The notes: generated from the sequence alone by a model not told the origin. DNA of 64,000 nt from Sulfurimonas sp. (GCA_028689055.1 JAQTWZ010000002.1:9503-73502), one strand, 5' to 3'; positions 30,600-44,232 are shown, counted from the stretch's first letter. Translations and numbers: made by a program.

Positions 30600-30647
30600 A
30601 ATTATATCTAAATTCTTATTTTATATTGAGATTGATTATTAAAACTA

Positions 30648-30676
30648 TTGACATTTAAAAATAAATTGATTACAAT
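30648..30676 (+). promoter_or_regulatory. Sigma-70 promoter for porin/FMN-binding cluster
   Basis: TTGACA (30648-30653), 17-nt spacer, TACAAT (30671-30676). Confidence 0.75.
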
Positions 30677-30695
30677 TCTCAAAATTTAAAACAGT

Positions 30696-30714
30696 TATGA
30701 TAATAAGTATCATA
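30696..30714. promoter_or_regulatory. Fur-box-like operator
   Basis: Perfect interrupted palindrome TATGATA-ATAAG-TATCATA between promoter and RBS; resembles GATAATGATwATCATTATC. Confidence 0.6.
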
Positions 30715-30732
30715 ATAATAAAGGAAACTAAA

Positions 30733-31950
30733 ATGAAAACTTCGACAACTGCTCTAAGCATTTTCACAGCGTTACTTCTTACTTCATCTGCATTTGCAAG
30801 TGAAGCAACTGAGTTAGAAGCCCTCAAACAAGAGCTAAAAGAGCTTAGAGAGATGACAAACACGCTCGTAGATGAGACAAGTGATCTCAAAACAGGTTTT
30901 TCTTATACAACGGTAGATACGCAAAAGTCACACAGTGGATTGGGAAGCGCTGCTTCAAAAGTCTATTATTCAAAATCTCCTCTTTCTATAGGCGGTTATG
31001 GTGAGATGTATTATGCGCAGACAACTGAAGGTGACGCTAAAGTCGATGTTTATAGATTTGTTCCCTATATTGGTTATAAATTTTCGGACAATATCATCCT
31101 AAATGTGGAACTGGAGTTTGAACACGGTGGGGTAAAAGACGGCGCTGCAGGAGATGGTTATGTTGTTGTTGAGTTTATGTATCTTGACTTTTTATGCAAC
31201 AAAAACGCAAACCTCAGAGTCGGAAATATGCTCATGCCTATGGGACTTATCAACGAAAAACATGAGCCGACACTTTTTACTACGGTACAAAGACCAAATA
31301 CGGAAAAAACTCTTATCCCTTCCACTTGGCATGAGAGCGGTGTGATGGCTTACGGTGAAATTGCTGAAGGTCTCTCTTATAGACTAGGTGGTTTTACGGC
31401 GCTTGATTTATCTATGGGAGCAGGCAAAGGTGACTCATGGCTGAGAGATAGTCGTATCGGTTCATTTGGAGATACACAAAGAGATGATTTAGGTTTAGGT
31501 GTTGTCGCCAGAGTGGATTATACAGGCATAAACGGCTTGCTTGTCGGTGCTTCAGGATATACAGATACACACATCAAAATGTATGATATCCATGCAGACT
31601 ACAAACTAGATGCCATGAGACTCTATGGCGTTTATACGCAAACAACTCGCTCAGATGCTCCAAACGGTGAACCAGAGAGCGCAAAAGGCGGCTATATAAA
31701 CGCAAGCTATGATATGCTTTCATTTACATCATGGAGTGAGAAAATGCCCCTTTTTGTCCAGTATGAAAGTGTTGCGGCGCAAGATGCTATCGCCGGCGGG
31801 ACTTCTGTAGCTCCGAAAAAGACGACGACCGTAGGTATCAACTATTTTCCACATGAGCAGGTAGTCCTCAAAGCAGATTATGCGATGCAAACGCAGGATG
31901 ATAAAACCGATTTGGCTATCGCCAGTGTTTCGATGGGATTTATTTTTTAA
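30733..31950 (+). CDS. Porin-like outer-membrane beta-barrel protein
   Basis: Signal peptide MKTSTTALSIFTALLLTSSAFA, coiled coil, barrel strands ending in ASVSMGFIF (terminal aromatic). Start moved to ATG 30733 behind AAGGAAAC. Confidence 0.8.
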   Translation: MKTSTTALSIFTALLLTSSAFASEATELEALKQELKELREMTNTLVDETSDLKTGFSYTTVDTQKSHSGLGSAASKVYYSKSPLSIGGYGEMYYAQTTEGDAKVDVYRFVPYIGYKFSDNIILNVELEFEHGGVKDGAAGDGYVVVEFMYLDFLCNKNANLRVGNMLMPMGLINEKHEPTLFTTVQRPNTEKTLIPSTWHESGVMAYGEIAEGLSYRLGGFTALDLSMGAGKGDSWLRDSRIGSFGDTQRDDLGLGVVARVDYTGINGLLVGASGYTDTHIKMYDIHADYKLDAMRLYGVYTQTTRSDAPNGEPESAKGGYINASYDMLSFTSWSEKMPLFVQYESVAAQDAIAGGTSVAPKKTTTVGINYFPHEQVVLKADYAMQTQDDKTDLAIASVSMGFIF

Positions 31951-31959
31951 AGGATTTGT

Positions 31960-32481
31960 ATGAAAACTCTCCTACTTGCTTTTTTATTCGCTCTCTCTTT
32001 GAGTGCGGATGTTCTTATCTCTCCTGAAGAAGCGCTCTCTTTGGCCTATAAAGATGCTACAAAGATAGAAAAAAGAAATATTTTACTGACAAATGCGCAG
32101 GCGCAAAAAATACAAGAAGAGAGTAAAGTCAAACTCTCAAGCAAGATATACCGTATCTTCACAGCCCAAAAAGATGAAAAAGTTTTGGGTTACGGTATCC
32201 TCATCAACGAAACAGTTCGTTCCAAAAACGCAGTGATACTCTACTTTATCTCAAGTGATTCGCTCCTCAAAGGTATAGAGATCATTGCATTTAACGAACC
32301 GCCTGAGTATCTTCCATCCAAAATATGGAATGCACAGTTCCAAAATATACAAACGAGTAAAATGCTTCGTCTCTCCAAAGAGATACCGACAATCACAGGA
32401 GCGACCATGAGCGCAAAAAGCGTCACGGATGGCTCAAGAGTTGCGTTTGCTTTGTATAACGAACTTTTGAAAAAGGAGTAA
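31960..32481 (+). CDS. Exported FMN-binding domain protein
   Basis: Signal peptide; IPTITGATMSAKSVTDG matches the covalent FMN attachment region (S/T-G-A-T) of FMN-binding proteins. Confidence 0.78.
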   Translation: MKTLLLAFLFALSLSADVLISPEEALSLAYKDATKIEKRNILLTNAQAQKIQEESKVKLSSKIYRIFTAQKDEKVLGYGILINETVRSKNAVILYFISSDSLLKGIEIIAFNEPPEYLPSKIWNAQFQNIQTSKMLRLSKEIPTITGATMSAKSVTDGSRVAFALYNELLKKE

Positions 32482-32483
32482 AC

Positions 32484-32966
32484 TTGCGTTTTACACTTAT
32501 AAAAGATATCAAAAAAGACACGGTGATGCGACCCGTTTTGGGCGCGCTTTTGTTTTTTGCCCTTTTATATCTCATCTCGGATATTTTGGTCAAACAAAGC
32601 AGTTTCGGTATCACTCCCGCAGCAGTTTCTGCGACACTTTTTGGAGATGAAGAGCAATTTTTGGAGGCTCTTTCACAAGCCTCTTTTTTAGAGTTTTGGC
32701 ATACGGAGATATTTTTTTCGATGATGCTACTCTTTACCATGAGCGCTGTTTATATCCGTCTATACGAAGCATCCAAAAAAGCGATGTTGCTTGTGCATCT
32801 GCTTTTTATCAGCGCCCTGCTCGCCCTTTTTGCTTTGCCGTTGGCCTATTTTGTAGATCCTGCGTTTGTGAATATTTATAGTTTCTCTTTTATAGTGTGG
32901 CATCTAAGTGCCCTCATCGTCGCTTTTTGTGCGCTTCAAAGGCTCTATTTTGCAAAAAGCGTATAA
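32484..32966 (+). CDS. Integral membrane protein with TM histidines (paralogue 1)
   Basis: 4 predicted TM; FGITPAAVSATLFGDEEQFLEALS...HTEIFF...LLVHLLF...VWHLSALIV. Confidence 0.65.
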   Translation: MRFTLIKDIKKDTVMRPVLGALLFFALLYLISDILVKQSSFGITPAAVSATLFGDEEQFLEALSQASFLEFWHTEIFFSMMLLFTMSAVYIRLYEASKKAMLLVHLLFISALLALFALPLAYFVDPAFVNIYSFSFIVWHLSALIVAFCALQRLYFAKSV

Positions 32967-33402
32967 AACTTCTCTTCTGTATTTTCTTGCGTTTTGTCTG
33001 CTTTTACTCCTAAGCGCCGCCTTGCTTTTTTCACACAAGATAGGTTTCACACCAGACGCAGTTATGGCTTATTATCTGGGGTGTGAAGCAGATTTTATAG
33101 CCGCCAAATCCGATACGGGAATACTCAAAATCATCCTGCCGCATATTTTTGCCTACGCTCTGCTTTTGATGGTACTTTTACACTTTTTGAGATTTACACG
33201 CTACAAAAACAAACGCTTCATGAGCACCCTTATCACGACATTTTTTTTCGCTGCGTTTTTTGAGATATTTACCCCGTTTCTGATACTTCATATCTGTGCA
33301 CTTTTTGTTTACGCCAAACTAGCTGCTCTTTTTCTTTTCTTTCTTTTGATGTCAACCGTTTTATACCTGCTTTTTGCTAGTATTGCATTTCTTAAAAAAT
33401 AG
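32950..33402 (+). CDS. Integral membrane protein with TM histidines (paralogue 2)
   Basis: IGFTPDAVMAYYLGCEADFIAAKS...PHIFAYALLLMVLLHFLRF...LILHICALF; TTG start inferred at 32950 (ORF opens at 32908). Confidence 0.6.
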   Translation: MQKAYKTSLLYFLAFCLLLLLSAALLFSHKIGFTPDAVMAYYLGCEADFIAAKSDTGILKIILPHIFAYALLLMVLLHFLRFTRYKNKRFMSTLITTFFFAAFFEIFTPFLILHICALFVYAKLAALFLFFLLMSTVLYLLFASIAFLKK

Positions 33403-33415
33403 CTAGGAGTTTTGT

Positions 33416-33970
33416 ATGTTTGAAGTGTTGTTGCTTGCGTTTGCCCTAAGTATGGACGCTTTTGCCGTCGCCATCGGTTTGGGTGTAAAAAAAGGAGCGT
33501 TTGATAAACTTCTTGCTCTCAAAGTTGCGCTGTTTTTCGGGATTTCTCAAGGTTTGATGCCGCTTTTTGGCTACTTGGCAAGTCTCGGTATCGGTGATTT
33601 TATCACATCCGTAGATCACTGGATCGCCTTTGTTCTGCTTGGACTTATCGGCGGAAAAATGCTTTATGAGAGTTTCGGTGAAAACACGGAAGAAGAGATT
33701 GCTATCATCACCAACAAAGTCCTGCTTTTACTCGCAATTGCTACAAGTATCGATGCTATGGCAGCTGGATTTACACTCAATCTCATGAGCCTCAATCCTT
33801 TTCTATCAATGCTGCTTATCGGTGTTGTGACTTACTTTTTTAGTTATTTTGGTGTTTATGTCGGTTCACGCGGCGGCAGTTATCTTGAGAGCAAAGCCGA
33901 ATTTTTGGGTGGTTTGGTACTTGTGGGGATAGGTTTCAAAATCCTACTTGAACATACCGGTTTTCTCTAA
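33416..33970 (+). CDS. mntP: Manganese efflux pump MntP
   Basis: ALSMDAFAVAIGLGVKKG; ATSIDAMAAGFTL. Confidence 0.93.
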   Translation: MFEVLLLAFALSMDAFAVAIGLGVKKGAFDKLLALKVALFFGISQGLMPLFGYLASLGIGDFITSVDHWIAFVLLGLIGGKMLYESFGENTEEEIAIITNKVLLLLAIATSIDAMAAGFTLNLMSLNPFLSMLLIGVVTYFFSYFGVYVGSRGGSYLESKAEFLGGLVLVGIGFKILLEHTGFL

Positions 33971-33984
33971 GTCGTCCGTTTTTT

Positions 33985-34127
33985 AACTGATGTTACGCAC
34001 GAAAACGAACCCGTCCGTTTTCGTGGCAGGGACAAGCCTCCCTACAACCCCCTAAAGCTACGAAAAACTATGTTTTTCGAGAATTACAAGGTGTTTTAGA
34101 CACTTTTTATAAAAGTGCGTAAGGTCA
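33985..34127. repeat. Structured intergenic repeat, copy 1
   Basis: Stems 33998-34025 (CACGAAAACG/CGTTTTCGTG), 34028-34043 (AGGGA/TCCCT), 34061-34079 (CGAAAAAC-TAT-GTTTTTCG). Ends TTACGCAC (33993) / GTGCGTAA (34115). 34046-34105 matches 44109-44168 at 59/60. Confidence 0.88.
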
Positions 34128-35081
34128 ATTCTTAATATAAAGAGATAGATTTTTACTCTCTACATACTTCCTATCAGTTTCTACGATGATATATGCCAGA
34201 GGCAAAGTATCCAAAAATGCATAAGCTTTTTGCGGCGGCATCACACTTGCCGCAGTCGCATACGCGTCTATATCGCTATTTGGCAAATGCGATATCAGTG
34301 TGATAGACGCAAAAGCTTTTTGTGACCTTTTCATCTTGGGATCGATAAGATGGTTGTTGGATTTGTCTTGTACATAACGATTGTAATTGCCACTTGTTGT
34401 GATAGCCGTATCCGCTTTAAGCGTCTCAAAAGAGAGTAATATCCCATCCGAAAATGGATCTTGTATATCTATCTTGCATCGTTGCAGACAACGGATATCT
34501 CCGCTTGCGGCGATAATAGCATCATCTATCTTTTGCATCTTCAAAAACGCAGCCGCCTTATCCACCGCAAAACCCTTGCCCATACCTCCGAGGTCTATTT
34601 TGACATTTTTTTGCAGCCTCGCTTGCGTTTTATCAAACGAAAGTGCTCCAAAGCCAATCCTTGCGTTTTGCAGTTCACTCTCACTTGCTACGCGCTCATC
34701 TGCGCCAAATCTATATAAATCTTTTGTGATAGAACCGACTGTTATATCAAAATAGCCCTGCGTTTTGTGATAATAGTTTTGACTTAACAGCAGAGCTTCA
34801 TAACTCAAAACATCTAAAACCGCATGTTTTTCTTCATTGAGTTTGGAAATAGGAGAGTTTACGCGGTAAGAAGATAAAGAAGCTTCCACATCTTCTATGA
34901 TGCCAAAAGCTGCCTCAACATCTTTTTTGTAACTTTCATCCGTACTTATACTTACAAAAGTTCCGAGTGCGACTTTGGTTCGCGTGAGCGTCTGAGCAAA
35001 AAGAGAAAACCAAAGAAAAGAAAAAAGAAAGAAAAATCTAAATATCAATGGTTTCTTGAACTTCCAAACCAAAACCGCCAA
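34125..35081 (-). CDS. apbE: FAD:protein FMN transferase
   Basis: DVLSYEALLLSQNYYHKTQGYFDITVG; VDLGGMGKGFAVDKAA; AASGDIR; TSGNYNRY. Start uncertain (overlaps ribBA). Confidence 0.9.
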   Translation of the reverse strand: MAVLVWKFKKPLIFRFFFLFSFLWFSLFAQTLTRTKVALGTFVSISTDESYKKDVEAAFGIIEDVEASLSSYRVNSPISKLNEEKHAVLDVLSYEALLLSQNYYHKTQGYFDITVGSITKDLYRFGADERVASESELQNARIGFGALSFDKTQARLQKNVKIDLGGMGKGFAVDKAAAFLKMQKIDDAIIAASGDIRCLQRCKIDIQDPFSDGILLSFETLKADTAITTSGNYNRYVQDKSNNHLIDPKMKRSQKAFASITLISHLPNSDIDAYATAASVMPPQKAYAFLDTLPLAYIIVETDRKYVESKNLSLYIKN

Positions 35082-36066
35082 GTCCTACAAACTCTGCCTG
35101 TTTCATAGAAGTGATAAGGTTCATTTTTGAAACACCTAATGACTTAAGTATTTGCGCGCCTGTACCTATCTCTTTCATCGCTGCGTTATCTTGATGTGTG
35201 GTTTTGTTGATAAAAACCAACACACCGCTGTTTTGCTTGAGATATTCTATAGAGTGTACAAGATTATTGTATTTTTTTTGATTTAAAAGCAGTTCGATAT
35301 CAGGGACTACATTGTGAACGCGGACATTTGCCACTTCACCCGCTTTATAAAAAACGATAGCAGTATGTTCTATCTTGTCATGGTCGATAAAGGTATGTTT
35401 ACTTACTTTTACTCCAAAAAACTCTATCTCTTCTACATTTGTTTCATTGACAAGTCTCTCGTTTGCAAGTCGGTACTCTACGATATCAGAGATAAAAACA
35501 GTTTTGAGACCATGCTCTTCCCCGAAGATATCCAAATCATCTCGTCTAGCCATCGTCCCATCTTCTTTGATGATCTCACAAATAACTCCGGCTTCACTCA
35601 GCCCTGCCAAACGACAGATATCGACAGAGCCTTCTGTATGCCCTGTTCGTACAAGCGTACCGCCGTCTTTGGCTATAAGAGGGAAAATATGTCCCGGTCT
35701 TACCAACTCATCTGCATGGCTTATAGGATTAGCAAGAATCTTTATCGTGTCATCTCTCTCGCGTGCAGAGATACCGGTAAGTGCATTTTTTGCATCTACA
35801 GAGACAGTAAACGCAGTCTCATAAGAAGAGGTGTTGGAGTTTACCATCGGGTTTAACTGCAGTCTTTGTGCCGTTTTTTTGCTTAGTGCTACGCAGATAA
35901 GACCACGGGCATGTCTCGCCATAAAGTTTACATGTTCAGGTGTAGAAAACGCAGCTGCATAGACCAAATCCCCTTCGTTTTCTCTATCCTCATCATCAAC
36001 CATGATGATCATCTTCCCTTTTTTTATCTCTTCAATCGCTTCTAAAACTCTTTGTATCGGTGTCAT
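35038..36066 (-). CDS. ribBA: RibBA-type protein: DHBP synthase with degenerate GTP cyclohydrolase II domain
   Basis: MIMVDDEDRENEGDLVYAA, RPGHIFPL, HTEGSVDICRLAG; the C-terminal region has no cysteines. Confidence 0.88.
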   Translation of the reverse strand: MTPIQRVLEAIEEIKKGKMIIMVDDEDRENEGDLVYAAAFSTPEHVNFMARHARGLICVALSKKTAQRLQLNPMVNSNTSSYETAFTVSVDAKNALTGISARERDDTIKILANPISHADELVRPGHIFPLIAKDGGTLVRTGHTEGSVDICRLAGLSEAGVICEIIKEDGTMARRDDLDIFGEEHGLKTVFISDIVEYRLANERLVNETNVEEIEFFGVKVSKHTFIDHDKIEHTAIVFYKAGEVANVRVHNVVPDIELLLNQKKYNNLVHSIEYLKQNSGVLVFINKTTHQDNAAMKEIGTGAQILKSLGVSKMNLITSMKQAEFVGLGGFGLEVQETIDI

Positions 36067-36227: not shown

Positions 36228-36304
<77 letters not shown>

Positions 36305-36326: not shown

Positions 36327-36401
36327 TGGGGTGTCGCCAAGCGGTAAGGCACTGGTTTTTGGTACCAGCATCCGGGGGTTCGAATCCCTCTACCCCATCC
36401 A
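36327..36401 (+). tRNA. tRNA-Gln (TTG)
   Basis: TGGGGTG...CTGGTTTTTGGTACCAG...GGTTCGAATCC...TACCCCATCCA. Confidence 0.95.
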
Positions 36402-36448: not shown

Positions 36449-36525
<77 letters not shown>

Positions 36526-43157: not shown

Positions 43158-44048
43158 TTGAGCAGATCCTCCTTCGCACTTTTTGTTGCACTCCTTATCC
43201 ATCTTGTTTTACTGCTTCTTTTTTGGATTTTGGGAATGACTGCTGTAAACATGAAAAAAGAGCAGCCAAAAGAGGAAGAAAAAAAGATAAAAATCTCTCT
43301 CAAAGAGATGCCAAAGAAGCACACAGAATCAGGGCTTCCAAAGACTCAGCCGATACAAGAGCCGATGCCTATCGCGCCACCAATGCCAAAAGGCTCTCAG
43401 CTCAAAGAAGTCTCGCAACAAACACCTGTAAAATATGAACCAAAACAACAAGCAAAACAGCCAAAACTCAATAAAGAACTAAAACCAAATAAAGAAAAAC
43501 CCGTAGAACAGCCAAAAACAGAACCTCTTCCGCCTGAAAAACCTTATATTCCTCTTGAAGAGATCCAGCCAAAAAAAGAGACACCAAAAAAAGAAAAAAA
43601 GAAAGAAGAGTCTCTCTTTGATATCCTCTCTCAAGATAAATCCGCGCAAGAAGAACCAAAAAAAGAGACAAAAACGGCTTCAGGAGGTAATATATTCCAA
43701 AACATCCAAGAGCTCTACGGAGATGAATTTGGCAAGATGACTCCAGGACAACAGCAATATCTCATAGACAATCAAGAAGTCATGAGACGCATAACGCAAC
43801 AAGTCCTAACCCGTGTAGCACGCGTAAATATCAAAGAAAATTTTAATGTCAACAAAACAAATATCATTGAGTTTTATCTGCATCCAAACGGAGATATGAC
43901 GGATTTCAGATTTATCAAAAAAACAGGTTATTATGTACTTGATGACACAACAAAAGAGACGATAGAATATGCGTACAGCAGATATCCGAGACCTAAAGAG
44001 AAGATTCTTATACGCTACAATGTTTTTTACAACCTCGCGGCTTATTAA
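43158..44048 (+). CDS. TolA/TonB-like energy-transduction protein
   Basis: N-terminal TM, K/E/P-rich linker, C-terminal TonB-like domain; TTG start inferred, as the listed ORF start lies antisense inside hemL. Confidence 0.75.
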   Translation: MSRSSFALFVALLIHLVLLLLFWILGMTAVNMKKEQPKEEEKKIKISLKEMPKKHTESGLPKTQPIQEPMPIAPPMPKGSQLKEVSQQTPVKYEPKQQAKQPKLNKELKPNKEKPVEQPKTEPLPPEKPYIPLEEIQPKKETPKKEKKKEESLFDILSQDKSAQEEPKKETKTASGGNIFQNIQELYGDEFGKMTPGQQQYLIDNQEVMRRITQQVLTRVARVNIKENFNVNKTNIIEFYLHPNGDMTDFRFIKKTGYYVLDDTTKETIEYAYSRYPRPKEKILIRYNVFYNLAAY

Positions 44049-44232
44049 CTAATATTACATACCCAAACGAACAAGTCCGTTTGGGCAGGAGGGACTCAAG
44101 TCCCTTCCAACCCCCTAAAGCTTCGAAAAACTATGTTTTTCGAGAATTACAAGGTGTTTTAGACACTTCATGTAAAAATGCGTCAGGTCAGCAACTAATA
44201 ATTTCATACCCAAACGAACAAGTCCGTTTGAG
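44046..44232. repeat. Structured intergenic repeat, copy 2 plus partial tandem head
   Basis: Stems CCCAAACG/CGTTTGGG (44062-44085), AGGGACT/AGTCCCT (44090-44105), CGAAAAAC-TAT-GTTTTTCG (44124-44142). Head AACTAATA..CATACCCAAACGAACAAGTCCGTTTG recurs at ~44192-44231. Confidence 0.88.

Follow-up and report, generated by a model that had tools for sequence, protein, structure and literature searches.

In this work we analyzed a stretch of Sulfurimonas DNA of 64,000 nucleotides (the window) that carries a set of genes for an outer-membrane porin, an exported FMN-binding protein (fmn) and two small membrane proteins (tm1 and tm2), accompanied by apbE, which encodes an FAD:protein FMN transferase. 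The reading that we favor, and consider fairly probable, is that this module encodes an assimilatory ferric reductase repressed by Fur. Sequence evidence strongly supports the membership of the module, its control by Fur, the partnership of ApbE with the FMN protein, and the link with iron uptake. According to the proposed mechanism, under iron shortage Fur would leave the two operators located around the promoter, and porin-fmn-tm1-tm2 would be transcribed. The porin would admit small ferric complexes to the periplasm, and ApbE would place FMN on Thr149 of the exported RnfG-like protein. TM1 and TM2, whose histidines are probably ligands of haem b, would draw electrons from the quinol pool and pass them through the inner membrane to the FMN, the reduced FMN protein would turn Fe(III) into Fe(II), and the resulting Fe(II) would be imported by FeoB. 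The haem, the quinol donor, the direction of the electron flow, Fe(III) as acceptor, and the hand-over to FeoB are the steps that we infer.

Gene organization and conservation of the module

The features of the region, in window coordinates, are the following:

30627..30641, no strand assigned: distal Fur-box-like site TGAGATTGATTATTA, 11 of 14 positions; the boxes of the relatives lie at about −106
30648..30676, + strand: sigma-70-type promoter, TTGACA-17-TACAAT, 11 of 12 consensus positions
30696..30714, no strand assigned: proximal Fur box, palindrome TATGATAATAAGTATCATA (TATGATA-ATAAG-TATCATA), which contains TGATAATAAGTATCA (13 of 14 positions)
30733..31950, + strand: outer-membrane porin, Porin_O_P-like, 405 aa; Pfam match just above the cut-off
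31960..32481, + strand: exported RnfG-like FMN_bind protein, 173 aa; predicted flavinylation at Thr149, codon 32404-32406
32484..32966, + strand: TM1, four-helix membrane protein; TTG start; His73, His140
32950..33402, + strand: TM2, four-helix membrane protein homologous to TM1; TTG start, overlaps tm1; His65, His78
33416..33970, + strand: MntP-family efflux pump; accessory, in a minority of loci
34125..35081, − strand: ApbE, FAD:protein FMN transferase; no second ApbE was detected in the genome
35038..36066, − strand: RibBA, for the synthesis of riboflavin; overlaps apbE, and the two are neighbors only in Sulfurimonas and Sulfurimonas-like loci

The promoter, the palindrome and the open reading frames described in the initial annotation were all found in the window, and Pfam agreed with the identities given there to the porin, the FMN-binding protein (bit score 23.3, cut-off 22), MntP (158), ApbE (186) and RibBA (DHBP_synthase and GTP_cyclohydro2 domains); no PDB relatives of the porin were found. 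The porin was taken to start at the ATG at 30733, since the ATG at 30697, the first in frame, falls inside the operator, and tm2 most likely starts at the TTG at 32950, overlapping the end of tm1. The gaps along porin-fmn-tm1 and tm2-mntP are 9, 2 and 13 bases, and these short distances together with the tm1/tm2 overlap make it likely that porin through mntP are carried on one transcript. The genes apbE and ribBA, both convergent with the module, overlap by 44 bases. Among the best 80 of the 86 loci that were confirmed, the closest named FMN protein is that of Sulfurimonas sp. GWF2_37_8 (91% identical).

Conserved synteny, whose absence the initial annotation had named as grounds for refutation, was evident. 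About 90 loci were compared, from 13 whole-genome relatives and from a scan of named genomes with two short peptide patterns (the best 80 of the 86 loci confirmed by it), and in most of them porin, fmn, tm1 and tm2 are collinear. The exceptions are contig ends, extra fmn copies devoid of tm1 and tm2 (L104, 6001-6519, and L078, 6001-6525, in genomes that have a copy of the module elsewhere), and loci without a porin; L054, L067 and L078 have no porin of their own, and in L065, L071, L073 and L082, among others, no porin was detected by blast upstream of fmn-tm1-tm2. In L140, which belongs to another family of the order, the porin gene is divergent from fmn, and two Fur boxes precede it. The apbE gene usually adjoins the module, though the flanks vary and apbE changes side: it is convergent and just downstream in Sulfurimonas, and divergent and upstream of the porin in Sulfuricurvum, a switch that corresponds to one change on the FMN tree. 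Relatives in other families of the order keep the gene set despite having different flanking genes. In an even sample of the phylum TM2 was present in 20 of 298 genomes, belonging to 7 of 58 genera, and a search for TM2 on plasmids found none; the named organisms among the listed loci are all Campylobacterota, a few titles reading just "bacterium". These comparisons strongly support a core of five genes, porin-fmn-tm1-tm2 plus apbE, shared by Sulfurimonas and other Campylobacterota.

The cluster as initially annotated also included mntP and ribBA; the porin, the FMN protein, the membrane pair and ApbE retained their place, and these two genes, present or adjacent only in subsets of the loci, were rejected as core members and are regarded as accessory. 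In most Sulfurimonas loci ribBA either overlaps apbE or lies directly against it, and it is a neighbor only there and in some Sulfurimonas-like loci. MntP is part of the module operon in 6 of 52 module-bearing Sulfurimonas genomes (6 of 85 overall), and its gene follows tm2 in some Sulfurimonas and apbE in some Sulfuricurvum; it has thus joined the locus more than once. In the Sulfuricurvum-type loci L083, L091, L096, L103 and L135 the MntP gene lies beside or near apbE. A role of the operon in the homeostasis of manganese or of several metals, for which MntP would be the functional output, would agree with the recruitment of this gene in two different arrangements and with its rarity (20 of 85 genomes have MntP anywhere); however, most loci lack MntP, several genomes have it elsewhere, and the operators correspond to those found at genes for iron uptake, so that we consider this reading very improbable.

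Other elements were observed in the same part of the window. A non-coding dispersed repeat lies between mntP and apbE (33972-34115); the genome has 11 stretches that match it, eight of which are at least 90 bases long with 82-100% identity. The repeat includes a 13-base inverted repeat, and has a further copy at about 44042-44177. Two tRNA-Met genes with the same covariance score (36228-36304 and 36449-36525) flank a tRNA-Gln gene (36327-36401).

Fur boxes and association with iron-uptake genes

For the palindrome TATGATAATAAGTATCATA at 30696-30714, 0.02 chance matches with at most 3 mismatches are expected in the window, and the sequence TGATAATAAGTATCA inside it (30698-30712) fits the 7-1-7 Fur box at 13 of 14 positions. 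Upstream of the porin, the best-scoring box matches on average 12.3 of 14 positions in 72 loci, as compared with about 9-10 when the same regions are shuffled. Most Sulfurimonas loci show two boxes, roughly 37 and 107 bases ahead of the porin, and at the distal position (about −106) most Sulfurimonas relatives have boxes with 12-14 of 14 positions. The boxes of Sulfuricurvum are weaker and lie near −28 and −86. Fur boxes also occur at the module in order-level relatives, and the paired boxes are kept across genus, family and order. In the whole genome there are six Fur sites with at most one mismatch: one at the module, three in the imelysin region, and the remaining two ahead of the genes for FeoB and an OprD-like porin; apart from the module itself, this census points to iron genes alone. 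The promoter of the module thus has a Fur box in common with known iron genes. The iron-responsive control claimed in the initial annotation is borne out as far as the binding sites can tell, and the module is probably controlled by Fur and turned on when iron is short.

The imelysin region encodes an imelysin, a di-haem peroxidase-like protein (DHOR), a second imelysin, a fatty-acid-hydroxylase-like protein, a porin, MauG and a Fur-like protein. The cluster lies on contig C4 of the window genome at about 41.6-50 kb, and holds three of the six best Fur boxes of the genome. Imelysins have been implicated in bacterial iron uptake (PMC3143127). The porin of the window is a paralogue of the porin of this cluster (33% identity, E 1e-60); a kinship with the OprD-like porin of FeoB was rejected, given that the two have no similarity. 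In three loci fmn is divergent from the imelysin-DHOR cluster, and the shared intergenic region has Fur-box matches of 12-13 of 14; behind fmn there is tm1 in L054 (where the contig ends), tm1-tm2-apbE in L067, and neither tm1 nor tm2 in L078. This divergent arrangement is the strongest single functional link of the module. FeoB is present in 84 of 85 genomes and was not found in the module-bearing genome G006; being nearly universal, it does not single out the module.

The initial annotation had proposed ferric reduction or metal homeostasis. Because of the census of Fur sites and the three loci divergent from the imelysin cluster, the role is narrowed to iron acquisition, which stands, at the expense of a broader metal homeostasis. 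A relay controlled by Fur could also serve an acceptor other than ferric iron, for instance as an iron-sparing flavin substitute for a periplasmic cytochrome that would supply electrons to a peroxidase or to some other oxidant of the periplasm. The acceptors of flavinylated relays are diverse (PMC8238504), DHOR genes are located beside the module in three relatives, and control by Fur would by itself also fit an iron-sparing switch; nonetheless, the adjoining cluster also has two imelysins, and the dedicated porin is paralogous to the porin of that cluster. We regard this relay as unlikely.

The predicted flavinylated protein and the membrane pair

The motif TGATMSAKSV reported in the initial annotation corresponds to residues 146-155 of the FMN protein, and Thr149 is invariant in 70 of 70 homologues. 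This protein has a cleavable-looking signal peptide and is exported, so it is probably periplasmic rather than anchored to the membrane. A profile search matched it to RnfG (PDB 9eri_G, E 1.8e-10); the candidate that it represents a remnant of an RNF or NQR complex was rejected, since no other RNF subunit is found among the neighbors of the cluster. The window genome, 99.6% complete, encodes one ApbE, and only one FMN_bind protein could be detected in it; the Pfam FMN_bind model is weak on this family (it found the protein in 33 of 85 genomes), and divergent further substrates may exist. Among the 85 genomes of the genus at least 90% complete, the FMN protein and ApbE occur together in 52, the FMN protein alone in none, ApbE alone in 7, and neither in 26 (Fisher p 8e-16, shared ancestry ignored; two FMN hits with E 7e-4, in G015 and G361, were judged spurious and excluded). 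An exported FMN_bind protein carrying the Thr of an S/T-G-A-T motif is thus encoded together with an ApbE. The motif and the co-occurrence uphold the earlier proposal that the adjacent ApbE flavinylates this protein, and argue strongly for Thr149 as the predicted site.

Two membrane proteins containing histidines had been noted previously; they are indeed present, and have four near-invariant histidines across the pair. A profile comparison showed the two proteins to be homologous (97% probability, E 2.6e-11), and structure prediction gave each of them four long helices and an additional short one (pLDDT 89.5 for TM1 and 93.4 for TM2). All 69 TM2 homologues have His65 and His78, which share one helix with a spacing of 13 residues; of 73 TM1 homologues, all have His73 and 71 have His140. 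The conserved histidines sit on predicted helices; by our reading of the topology, three are oriented towards the periplasmic side and one towards the cytosolic side, without forming two neat pairs, which is a point against the proposed mechanism. Lys123 of TM2 and Arg92 of TM1 are also invariant. From the histidines we infer that the pair probably binds haem b, using these residues as ligands.

No Pfam match was obtained for the pair of the window at E<=1, and no convincing one for 13-14 homologues of each protein at E<=1 or for 69 TM2 homologues at E<=0.1; a weak cytochrome b561 hint (E 0.0017) appeared in only 2 of 14 members. The PepSY-like, MsrQ-like, DsbD and NQR/RNF-like models were unmatched by TM1, TM2 or the homologues searched, and neither was a NapH-like iron-sulfur match found. 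PDB sequence and Foldseek searches gave no convincing match, and the PDB fold matches, insignificant helical bundles only, were rejected. That no haem-binding family or fold was recognized by Pfam, PDB sequence or Foldseek counts against the haem reading. Tentatively, and with slightly less than even confidence, we propose that TM1 and TM2 represent an undescribed carrier class, a homologous four-helix heterodimer that would jointly bind haem b, in a Campylobacterota ferric reductase outside the five published classes.

In the search for linked genes no cytosolic reductase or permease was found, which counts against the ferric-reductase reading. TM1 and TM2 might themselves be an Fe(II) permease, in which case the FMN protein would reduce periplasmic iron with electrons from elsewhere. 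Small paired four-helix proteins with conserved histidines and no proven cofactor would suit this role, and so would the module-bearing genome in which FeoB was not found. However, FeoB is otherwise present, and polar conservation is sparse once the histidines, one Arg and two Lys are set aside, with all acidic positions below 85%, unlike in known Fe(II) carriers; in addition, the published flavinylated proteins sit beside a membrane electron carrier (PMC8238504). A permease is in our view quite unlikely.

Relation to known flavin-based systems

The membrane components published for flavinylation systems belong to the NapH-, MsrQ-, PepSY-, DsbD- and NQR/RNF-like classes (PMC8238504). The PepSY- and MsrQ-like clusters have been linked to iron, and repression by Fur has been reported for the PepSY-like ones (Meheust et al. 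2021, PMC8238504). The putative ferric reductase module resembles these two systems in combining ApbE, an exported flavinylated protein and a membrane carrier (haem-binding in the MsrQ-like systems), a role that TM1 and TM2 would fulfill; in contrast, it has two small separate subunits that fall outside the class-defining Pfam models, a porin where those systems have a TonB receptor, and no VIT1 or NAD-binding domain. In Caulobacter crescentus, the genes CC_3060-CC_3063 are likewise repressed by Fur and include ApbE and a putative periplasmic DUF2271 protein (PMC3751524); DUF2271 proteins have been reported as ApbE substrates (PMC8238504). That system differs in the substrate domain and in the membrane component, and no porin of this family was noted in its description (PMC3751524). 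The FMN protein is a profile-level relative of the RNF subunit RnfG (PDB 9eri chain G), with its Thr flavinylation motif; unlike the RNF complex, the module has no other RNF subunit among its neighbors, and its FMN protein is probably periplasmic.

Within the same phylum, riboflavin-linked assimilatory ferric reduction has been reviewed for Campylobacter jejuni and Helicobacter pylori, where RibBA and flavin are also tied to Fe(III) reduction (PMC6041382). In these bacteria the process is described via riboflavin production and not via a flavinylated protein, and its mechanism in C. jejuni is described as unresolved (PMC6041382). In the open-licence literature on Sulfurimonas FMN-binding we found no description of the module. 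The module would provide a concrete and testable machine for the ferric-reduction step of Campylobacterota, in abundant sulfur oxidizers, and would add an uncatalogued pair of membrane proteins to flavin-based electron transfer; its simplicity, with five genes, one ApbE and one detectable substrate, may suit it as a clean model.
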